Position numbers and translations under genes: made by a program
Notes under the pieces: model-generated
What the model was told of the DNA's origin: nothing
Seen by the model: only the letters and a program-made list of their open reading frames with translations
Databases searched by the model: none
DNA from: Candidatus Methylomirabilis sp.
GTDB taxonomy: Bacteria; DYJV01
Direction: 5' to 3'
NCBI GenBank assembly: GCA_020722945.1
Contig: DYJV01000086.1
Coordinates: 1,795-8,131 of the forward strand
DNA length: 6,337 nucleotides
Shown: positions 2,995 through 6,313 of the stretch, in pieces
Layout: every line of letters starts with the position of its first letter
Position numbering within the stretch: position 1 is the first letter of the stretch

Positions 2995-3642
2995 ATGCCG
3001 CTTATTACGAGTATTGTTCAAAATAAGAAAAACAAAAAATTTTATTCTGTTTTCATTGACGGAAAATTTCGATTTTCCTTATCTGAAAATGACCTCACTT
3101 TTCTTGATTTAAAAGAGAACCAGAATATCTCCAAGGATAAACTTAATCAATTTGTAGAAGAATATTCAATTCAAAAAGCGAGAAGATATGCCTACTTATT
3201 AGTATCAAAAAAACTTTATTCGAAAAATAAATTTATTGAGAAATTACAGAATAAAAAATTCCCTGAAGAGACTATAAATAAAATAATAGAAGAACTTAAA
3301 GAGTATAAGTATATCAATGATAGAGAACTGATATACGAATATGCAAAGAATAAAGTGGAACTTAAGCCAATGGGGAGATATAGACTGCAAAGGGAACTTT
3401 TTAATCAGCGTTTTAAAGAGGATGATATTAAAGAGTGTCTTGAGAGAATCTATACAGAGTTTGATGAGGGTGAGTTGGCACAAAAGGCAGTTGCTGCTCG
3501 GTTTAAAAAATCTTTGGATAATGTAGATGAGGGGTTATTAAAGAAGATTAACAATTTTTTATTGTCACGAGGATTTAATTATGATATTATAAATGATATT
3601 ATAAAAAGCATTAGAGAGAATAGGCGAAAGGATGAAGATTGA
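2995..3642 (+). CDS. recX: RecX-family regulatory protein
   Basis: The 215-residue protein has the RecX layout. A basic beta-rich N-terminal extension (ITSIVQNKKNKKFYSVFIDG, 4-23) is of the kind seen in longer RecX proteins. Three tandem three-helix units follow: about 57-106 (KARRYAYLLVSKKLYSKNKF), 110-153 with the preceding Y-I-N-D109 and KPMGRYRLQRELF (124-136), and 159-206 ending LLSRGFNYDII. RecX proteins bind RecA filaments and usually inhibit recombinase activity; some family members stimulate it. The glycine normally found before the hydrophobic residue in the L...KGF/KGI turn is K88 in unit 1 and R139 in unit 2, but kept (G193) in unit 3. ATG 2995 has only a weak binding site (GTGG, 2983-2986), consistent with coupling to rpsI. 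No recA is in the window. The 3' end overlaps the next gene by 11 nt. Confidence 0.85.
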   Translation: MPLITSIVQNKKNKKFYSVFIDGKFRFSLSENDLTFLDLKENQNISKDKLNQFVEEYSIQKARRYAYLLVSKKLYSKNKFIEKLQNKKFPEETINKIIEELKEYKYINDRELIYEYAKNKVELKPMGRYRLQRELFNQRFKEDDIKECLERIYTEFDEGELAQKAVAARFKKSLDNVDEGLLKKINNFLLSRGFNYDIINDIIKSIRENRRKDED

Positions 3643-6313
3643 ATCTATAAGAAAATATTACCCATTGTTTATAATTATATCTTTACTGTTTCTCTTCATA
3701 AAAACCACAGCACCCGATGTTACAACAGGGGACAGTGGTGAACTTCTTTCATCTGCTTATTATCTTGGGATTGGGCATCCGCCAGGTTATCCTCTTTATT
3801 GGCTGCTTGCAAAATTGTTCTATTATCTTTCATTTATTCTGACACCTCTTTTCTGGCTGGCTGGAGTTAAAATTACTGACCAGTTTGCATATCGGGTTAA
3901 TCTGCTTTCAGGAGTTTTCACTACCATCAGTTCGTTTATGTTCTATTACTTTATTCTTTATCTGTTAAAAAATTTGAATAAAAATAAGAGTGATGATGCA
4001 GAAAAAAAAGATTTTTTTTATGAGATTTCATTGATATCTTCACTCACTTTTGGCACAATCAATCTTATATGGTCTCAATCTACAAATACTGAAGTCTATA
4101 CGTTGAATCTGCTCTTTCTTGTTTTGAATCTTTTCTTAATAACAAAGTTTACATTTTCTAAAAAAATAAAGTATCTTCGACTTTTTTCATTCATATATGG
4201 CTTAAATATAGTTGCACATCAGACGTCTAGTATACTTGCACCTATATTTGGGTTATGGATAATTTATATCTATCCTAAAATAATGAAAAAGCCACGAGTG
4301 ATATTTAGTATGTTCATCTTATTTATACTTGGCTTAACACTCTATTTTTATTTACCGATTCGTTCTGCAGCACATCCGCCTTTAGATTGGGGTAATACAT
4401 CAAATTTTAAAAATTTTGTAAATCATATTTTAAGACGGCAGTATGGTGAATTGATAAAAAATGTGCCAAAAGATAGTATCCTTCAATCCAAAAGAAGTTT
4501 TAAAATGTTTCTTGTTCAAAATTATGAAGTTCTAAAAATTTTATTTAAAAATTTTACATTGATTTTACTTCCGTTACTCCTTGCAGGGATGTTCAGGGTA
4601 TATAAGAAAAACAGGAAATATTTTTTTTTTATAATAGTTTCGTCAATCTTTTTTATAGAAGTAATGACATATATTACAAATTTTAAGATTGCGAAATTGA
4701 GTATATATGTCAATGAGATATTCTATATTCCTGCAATATTATTGTTATATATTTTTATTCCAATTGGAATTGAATATATATTGCATAGAGTATCACCAAC
4801 TTATATCAGATATTTTTTCGCTGTTCCTATTATTATGGGTATATTGAATTATCATACAAACGATGAGCATAACAATTATATAATAGCAGAATATACTGAA
4901 AACATATTAAAGACACTGGATTCAAAAGCCAAAGTTTTTACTATGGGGGATAACACGACATTTCCACTTGCTTACTATCACTATGTAAAACATAAGCGGC
5001 CGGATGTTCTTTTTATTGGTGAGTATGGGTTTATATTTCAGGATATGTTTAAATTAGCAAAAGTTGATTATGACATTCCTAACAATATTAAGAAGAAGAT
5101 AAGGGATAAAATTGAGGAGAAAATAATAGAGAGAGATGATGTCCCAATCTATTATACTTATGATGCTGAAACAAAAGTTCCAGTAGGGAAAAAGATTCAG
5201 CCTTATGGCATAATTTATAAATTATCTTCAGTCAGTAACTCTCCTAAAATGGATGAATACCCGTTTTACTCATATAGTTTCGATTCAATGAATGATAAAA
5301 AGAATTATCAGGATTTGATGGATAGGGATATGGTTTCAATAGTCTATTATCATTTAGGTGAATATTTTGGAAGTATAGGAGATACAGTATCAGCAAGTAA
5401 ATATTCATTAAAATCAAAATTTGTGAGTGGAACAGAATATGCGAAAAAGAGAATACATTACAATTTAGCATTGGATTACAAAAAGAGAGGTCAAATTGAT
5501 AAGGCAGTAAAGGAACTTTTAACAGCGATTGAGATTGATAATAATTATTCTAAAGCCCATTCGCTTTTAGGCAACATCTATAGTGATATGGGGAAACATT
5601 TATTGGCAATTTCTGAGTTTAAACAGGCTTTAAAAAATGAAGAGGATAATCCAAAGACATATAACAATATAGGTATTGAATTTTATAAGATTGGCAAAAT
5701 TGAAGAGGCATTTTCATTTTTTAAAAAAGCAATATCACTTGATAAAAATAATTATGAAGCATACAACAATATAGCAGTTATACTGGAAGAGTTTAAAAAA
5801 TATAATGAAGCAGTTGCAATGTATAAAAAGGCAATTGAACTGAACCCCAAATATAAAGATGCATACTATAATCTTGGGACACTTTATTTAAATGCAAATT
5901 ATATTGATTTAGCATATAAGAGTTTAAAAGATGCAATAAAGGTTTACCCGCAGTATGCTGATGCCTATTTTAATCTTGGGATACTTTTTCAGAAGAAAAG
6001 AGATTATAAAAAGGCGGTAGAATATTTTAAGAAAGCAATAGAGTTTAAACCAAATTTTGCTGAAGGCTATTTTAATATAGGGGTATCTTATTTGTGGTTA
6101 AAAGAATACAGGGAAGCGGAGAAAAATTTTAAAACAGCGGTAAAGATTAAACCGAATTATTATATAGCATATAAGCATCTTGGAAATACATACTATTATA
6201 TGCAAGATTTAAGTTTAGCCTATAAAGAATGGAAGAAGGCGTATCAGTTGAACCCAAATGATAAAGAACTTAAAAACAATTTACAGGTGCTTGAATCACA
6301 AGGAATTCAATAG
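3632..6313 (+). CDS. DUF2723 (TMEM260-like) GT-C-type membrane glycosyltransferase with eight C-terminal TPRs
   Basis: 893 residues. A first membrane helix (about 11-26) leads into the DUF2723 hallmark: PDVTTGDSGELL (28-39), with acidic D34 and E37 in the first non-cytoplasmic loop as in GT-C transferases, and GHPPGYPLYWLLAK (48-61). About ten further hydrophobic segments run to about 405 (roughly 56-76, 90-113, 131-148, 154-173, 183-213, 222-241, 302-321, 330-348, 361-383, 391-405). RSAAHPPLDWGN (244-255) and RRQYGE (268-273) are further family landmarks. A soluble part (about 410-600) contains VFTMGDNTTFPLAYY (435-449) and KRPDVLFIGEYGF (455-467). Eight exact 34-residue TPRs cover 606-877, preceded by a degenerate one. 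Human TMEM260, of this family, is an O-mannosyltransferase with a TPR tail, so lipid-linked sugar transfer to exported proteins is inferred here, unproven. ATG 3632 overlaps recX by 11 nt and has only a weak binding site, so translational coupling is likely. Confidence 0.85.
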   Translation: MKIESIRKYYPLFIIISLLFLFIKTTAPDVTTGDSGELLSSAYYLGIGHPPGYPLYWLLAKLFYYLSFILTPLFWLAGVKITDQFAYRVNLLSGVFTTISSFMFYYFILYLLKNLNKNKSDDAEKKDFFYEISLISSLTFGTINLIWSQSTNTEVYTLNLLFLVLNLFLITKFTFSKKIKYLRLFSFIYGLNIVAHQTSSILAPIFGLWIIYIYPKIMKKPRVIFSMFILFILGLTLYFYLPIRSAAHPPLDWGNTSNFKNFVNHILRRQYGELIKNVPKDSILQSKRSFKMFLVQNYEVLKILFKNFTLILLPLLLAGMFRVYKKNRKYFFFIIVSSIFFIEVMTYITNFKIAKLSIYVNEIFYIPAILLLYIFIPIGIEYILHRVSPTYIRYFFAVPIIMGILNYHTNDEHNNYIIAEYTENILKTLDSKAKVFTMGDNTTFPLAYYHYVKHKRPDVLFIGEYGFIFQDMFKLAKVDYDIPNNIKKKIRDKIEEKIIERDDVPIYYTYDAETKVPVGKKIQPYGIIYKLSSVSNSPKMDEYPFYSYSFDSMNDKKNYQDLMDRDMVSIVYYHLGEYFGSIGDTVSASKYSLKSKFVSGTEYAKKRIHYNLALDYKKRGQIDKAVKELLTAIEIDNNYSKAHSLLGNIYSDMGKHLLAISEFKQALKNEEDNPKTYNNIGIEFYKIGKIEEAFSFFKKAISLDKNNYEAYNNIAVILEEFKKYNEAVAMYKKAIELNPKYKDAYYNLGTLYLNANYIDLAYKSLKDAIKVYPQYADAYFNLGILFQKKRDYKKAVEYFKKAIEFKPNFAEGYFNIGVSYLWLKEYREAEKNFKTAVKIKPNYYIAYKHLGNTYYYMQDLSLAYKEWKKAYQLNPNDKELKNNLQVLESQGIQ
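6300..6304 (+). promoter_or_regulatory. Ribosome binding site for a gene starting at GTG 6314
   Basis: AAGGA lies inside the last codons of the DUF2723/TPR gene and ends 9 nt before GTG 6314, a good distance for initiation there. It supports a tightly coupled downstream gene. Confidence 0.5.

Follow-up and report, generated by a model that had tools for sequence, protein, structure and literature searches.

The window analysed here, a 6,337-nucleotide stretch of a Candidatus Methylomirabilis genome, encodes a protein whose assignment to a known family, the TMEM260-like proteins (PF11028), is well supported; the phylum is poorly known, and the TPR arm of the protein is enlarged. The human member of the family, TMEM260, transfers mannose onto receptor proteins with plexin/MET-type domains. 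The window protein is probably an inner-membrane GT-C glycosyltransferase of this family, which passes a lipid-linked hexose to an exported protein. Its protein acceptor, the identity of the sugar, the roles of its catalytic residues and the function of its TPRs are what we infer, and human-type substrates, namely the Ig-like plexin/MET domains, cannot be assumed for it.

Domain Organization and Membrane Topology

The reading frame of 893 codons given in the earlier note was exact, and both motifs claimed for it, D34-S-G-E37 and H49-P-P-G-Y-P, are present. The note had also described about eleven membrane segments, followed by a soluble domain and eight TPRs; model helices and flank charge gave eleven segments, the soluble domain covers approximately residues 411–560, and the eight repeats, in a 34-residue register, start at residues 606, 640, 674, 708, 742, 776, 810 and 844. 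The claimed anatomy is therefore confirmed as real, far beyond chance (Table 1). Among the family as a whole the TPRs are optional, being found in 26 of 60 members.

Following the charge rule, K and R account for 28 of the 88 residues in the inner flanks of the helices and for 7 of the 88 in the outer flanks. Judged from helix order and these flank charges, the outer face of the membrane carries D34, E37, H49, E154, H196 and R244 together with the soluble domain and the TPRs. The helix at residues 54–76 resembles a membrane span by hydropathy; it was nevertheless assigned to the first outer loop, since an insert that lengthens this loop, at residues 68–83, is absent from nearly all relatives.

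Predicted models were obtained for the whole protein (AlphaFold2, 60 sequences; pLDDT 90.2, pTM 0.86) and for its N-terminal 590 residues (pLDDT 86.8, pTM 0.91), the latter folded and compared separately because TPR proteins dominated the Foldseek matches of the full-length model. The membrane part matched only GT-C enzymes: all top VIA matches of the N-terminal model were GT-C-like membrane enzymes (Z 10.7–25.6), and the first non-GT-C chain followed at Z 6.6. The C-terminal part of the model, in turn, matched designed TPR superhelices and the TPRs of O-GlcNAc transferase. The structure of human TMEM260 was not among the fold matches, and entry 9rql may be absent from the structure set that was compared. 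On the predicted models and the inferred topology of eleven helices, the protein thus has a GT-C core, and its D34/E37 catalytic loop and TPRs share the non-cytoplasmic side, as the earlier note had proposed; a missing core, a cytoplasmic D34/E37 or TPRs opposite the catalytic loop, any of which it had named as grounds for giving up the proposal, were not seen.

Table 1. Features of the TMEM260-like protein, its gene and associated genes (window positions unless another locus is named)
Feature	Position	Strand	Basis or remark
recX-like gene, directly upstream of the TMEM260-like gene	2995..3642	+	ORF and Pfam
TMEM260-like (PF11028, GT-C type) membrane glycosyltransferase with C-terminal TPRs, 893 aa	3632..6313	+	ORF, Pfam, PDB matches, models
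GT-C membrane core, residues 10–410, eleven membrane helices, N-terminus in, C-terminus out	3659..4861	+	model helices, flank charge
First outer loop, residues 34–54, with D34-S-G-E37 and H49-P-P-G-Y-P	3731..3793	+	alignments
H196, near-invariant (58/60), outer end of TM5/TM6	4217..4219	+	alignment
R244, near-invariant (57/60), outer end of TM7	4361..4363	+	alignment
Periplasmic mixed alpha/beta domain, residues 411–560; D440, Y448, R456-x-D458 and G526 conserved	4862..5311	+	alignment, model
Eight 34-residue TPRs, residues 606–877	5447..6262	+	Pfam, repeat register, model, fold matches
Dol-P-Man-synthase-like GT2 gene, contig C158 of the window's genome	L006:3592-4305		3 kb from a PF11028 paralogue

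Relationship to Human TMEM260

PF11028 was matched over residues 34–212 (E 7e-28; 98.0 bits against a cut-off of 24.2). When residues 1–600 of the window protein were searched alone, the sole PDB sequence match was human TMEM260 (9rql; E 6e-30, over residues 11–469), while a profile of 26 relatives reached the same protein at E 9e-93 over residues 30–548, with the next entry at E 0.35. The GD, RPD and G motifs in the lumenal domain of TMEM260 are conserved in the profile alignment, and since this alignment runs to TMEM260 residue 548, the kinship extends beyond the membrane core into the lumenal domain. The relationship suggested previously can therefore be stated as common ancestry with human TMEM260 across the membrane and lumenal domains. 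No relatives were found by scanning genome contigs with the window protein alone; scanning with the alignment instead recovered hundreds.

Human TMEM260 (CAZy GT117; PDB 9rql, 9rqm and 9rqn) has a homologous membrane core and lumenal domain and the DSGE and HPPGYP motifs, as well as C-terminal TPRs and an active-site loop on the outer side. However, it is a distant relative rather than an orthologue. Its TPR region comprises residues 614–696 only (PMC11043032), so the eight repeats of the window protein form a longer array; the parallel drawn earlier to a full TPR superhelix holds for the presence of eight TPRs but overstated the likeness to TMEM260.

D34 is kept in 59 of 60 relatives, E37 in 55 (with D in four others) and H49 in all 60, and the three residues align with D52, E55 and H67 of human TMEM260, as numbered by counting along the profile alignment. 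The two proteins differ at the other near-invariant positions: human TMEM260 has Ser in place of R244, and its counterpart of H196 is shifted by one, with no aligned His; details of the reaction may therefore not be the same in the two. R244 is missing in three of the 60 aligned proteins, two of them members of the TMEM260 group (Ala) and the third a Firestonebacteria paralogue (Ser). Its absence from the TMEM260 clade suggests that the loss marks this group, the window protein keeping the common bacterial state. A long branch in the trees and the insert at 68–83 might fit a divergent paralogue that is no longer catalytic and works instead as a sensor or TPR scaffold, but with D34, E37, H49, E154, H196, R244, D440, R456 and D458 all kept, such a fate is highly improbable.

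Phylogenetic Position

Trees were built with FastTree (109 proteins) and under a mixture model (37 rows). In both trees human TMEM260 falls inside the bacterial family, where it groups with proteins of Acidobacteriota (L120) and Myxococcota (L067), with 99% support in the 37-row tree. The window protein clusters in that tree with proteins from Firestonebacteria (85%), and it joins them in a wider group in the FastTree tree. Because TMEM260 is the single human sequence in the trees and long branches are numerous, the grouping is indicative. The possibility that the window protein is a TMEM260 orthologue was rejected, as the two lie in different supported clades (99% vs 85%). The Bacteroidota PF11028 proteins (about 890–1190 aa, with no named function) have the same core motifs and a long C-terminal extension, but they form a separate, tight clade with those of Chlorobiota, Calditrichota, Latescibacterota and KSB1.

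The Acidobacteriota protein (35% identical) and the Myxococcota protein are the nearest sampled bacterial relatives of human TMEM260 and may hint at the bacteria from which the eukaryotic gene came. As well, one Firestonebacteria genome (G044, locus L044) has ten PF11028 matches, nine of them above cut-off, which is an unusual expansion.

Comparison with Known Protein O-Mannosyltransferases

The protein O-mannosyltransferases TMTC1-4 (GT105) likewise combine a TPR array with a GT-C membrane domain, as the window protein does. Apart from the TPRs, no TMTC-specific domain or sequence match was found in the Pfam and PDB searches, and we know of no solved TMTC structure. The protein O-mannosyltransferases Pmt1, Pmt2 and Pmt4 (GT39) have the GT-C fold in common with the window protein (Z 22–24), with no significant sequence match to it. 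Membership of GT39 was rejected, as Pfam searching (E 0.01) gave neither a PMT match nor a MIR domain; Pfam PMT_2 is also matched by six of the 60 relatives.

Putative Lipid-Sugar Donor

The window's genome, a 2.5 Mb draft, encodes three PF11028 proteins, namely the window protein, a 1032-residue paralogue with TPRs (contig C87) and a 624-residue paralogue in which TPRs were undetected (contig C158). Near the latter lies a Dol-P-Man-synthase-like GT2 gene (Table 1), which is lined up with a GT9 heptosyltransferase gene and, further on, a flippase-like gene. Its best PDB match is the Dol-P-Man synthase 5mlz (E 5e-30), which we take to be from Pyrococcus, and a homologue in another genome matched 5mlz at E 5e-30 versus E 3e-10 for an ArnC-type protein, about 20 orders of magnitude better. 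No NCBIfam equivalog was found above cut-off for the DPM-like GT2, so mannose as the sugar is uncertain.

Among 40 bacterial genomes, each of a different family, the GT2 gene was found in 14 of the 17 with PF11028 and in 5 of the 23 without it (Fisher P 1.8e-4), and P ranged from 7e-5 to 4e-3 across seven E-value cut-offs. Moreover, of 15 other genomes having both genes, four have them within 10 kb of each other and in every case on one strand, where 0.35 would be expected (P 2.6e-4, with the 10 kb limit set after the gene positions were seen). These statistics ignore kinship among the genomes. At the scanned loci, 9 of 1189 genes near PF11028 were DPM-like, four of them strongly so, which is unconvincing; the whole-genome test is clearer. 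Co-occurrence and linkage with a polyprenyl-P-mannose-synthase-like gene support a donor of the polyprenyl-P-mannose type. The TMEM260-type glycosylation route envisaged in the earlier note thus gains partial support, which concerns the mannose-type lipid donor.

Proposed Mechanism and Acceptor

During glycosylation, a cytoplasmic Dol-P-Man-synthase-like GT2 would load mannose, or a hexose like it, onto polyprenyl phosphate, and this donor would then be presented on the outer face. There, the first-loop residues D34 and E37, aided by H49, H196 and R244, might both bind the phosphate-sugar of the donor and activate a Ser/Thr hydroxyl on an exported protein, so that a single sugar is transferred to it. 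The arm of eight TPRs, which lies on this side as well, may recruit or position the acceptor or a partner protein.

The same GT-C enzyme, using the same type of donor, might instead act on a glycan or lipid, such as LPS core, O-antigen, exopolysaccharide or S-layer glycan, in the manner of ArnT or ALG12, with the TPRs holding a partner in the envelope machinery. The closest folds to the N-terminal model include ALG12 (Z 25.6) and ArnT (23.5) beside the protein-modifying STT3 (24.2), Pmt4 (23.9) and Pmt1-Pmt2 (23.7), and with Z values this close the fold cannot separate protein from lipid or glycan acceptors. The surroundings of the C158 paralogue, with the GT9 heptosyltransferase gene and the flippase-like (Polysacc_synt) gene, also fit LPS or polysaccharide work, and the several PF11028 copies, three here and ten matches in the Firestonebacteria genome, may serve different acceptors. 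Against this, the only solved sequence relative is the protein O-mannosyltransferase TMEM260, with which the lumenal domain is common too, and TPR arms typically serve protein–protein contact; a glycan or lipid acceptor is accordingly a possible but rather unlikely alternative.

For transfer to an exported protein, which is the preferred reading, a possible substrate can be named. A 476-residue, possibly secreted protein with LamG-like and fibronectin type III domains is encoded directly upstream of the 1032-residue PF11028 paralogue (both genes at L005:7093-11631), and with their beta-sandwich structure these domains are similar to the Ig-like domains that human TMEM260 modifies.

Implications for Bacteroidota O-Glycosylation

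According to a 2025 review, the O-glycan core of Bacteroidota starts with mannose and its initiating transferase is undiscovered; the review advises seeking homologues of eukaryotic O-mannosylation (PMC12871550). PF11028 was found in 295 of 296 Bacteroidota genomes and, among 14 control genomes, only in the Bacteroides; a polyprenyl-P-mannose-synthase-like gene was found in 287 of the same 296. As both genes are near-universal in Bacteroidota, these counts give co-presence only and carry no signal of co-variation, and by eye the two are apparently not neighbours in the listed Bacteroidota genomes. On the basis of TMEM260 homology, presence in nearly all of these genomes and the cross-phylum pairing with GT2, PF11028 is a strong candidate for the O-mannose-initiating transferase of Bacteroidota, and the gap in this pathway is now directly testable through it.

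In the model proposed for Bacteroidota, the core is moved en bloc by an unknown OTase (PMC12871550). An O-oligosaccharyltransferase role for the window protein, in which protein would receive an oligosaccharide preassembled on polyprenyl-PP or polyprenyl-P, would agree with this model and with STT3/PglB structures matching nearly as well as Pmt. It is nevertheless improbable, given that the sequence kin is the monosaccharide transferase TMEM260 and that the family is associated with a Pol-P-Man-synthase-like gene.

With monosaccharide transfer to protein as the favoured activity, a broader proposal can tentatively be put forward, although we hold it with somewhat less than even confidence: the PF11028 family may be the missing protein O-mannosyltransferase that initiates Bacteroidota O-glycosylation from polyprenyl-P-mannose, with TMEM260 as a branch inside it and the window lineage running its own, parallel route, in which the TPR arm is enlarged. 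If true, a human gene linked to disease (SHDRA syndrome) would have its origin within a family of bacterial enzymes. A literature search of partial coverage found no paper that mentions DUF2723 or links TMEM260 with Bacteroidota, and an earlier statement of the idea is possible.

Genomic Context

In the window, rplM, rpsI and the recX-like gene precede the TMEM260-like gene. The last 11 bases of the recX-like gene are also the first 11 of the TMEM260-like gene, which makes co-translation probable. All three neighbours are housekeeping genes, and the recX-like gene is an uninformative housekeeping context; no recX homologue was found at the other PF11028 loci compared.

In addition, positions 848–1975 of the window encode a 375-residue protein whose GNAT acetyltransferase match is confined to its second half. 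A run of N is present in the contig just upstream of the window (L004, about 1690–1790), and positions 1–834 encode the C-terminal part of a protein that has a weak TPR match at its end and may be an outer-membrane beta-barrel.
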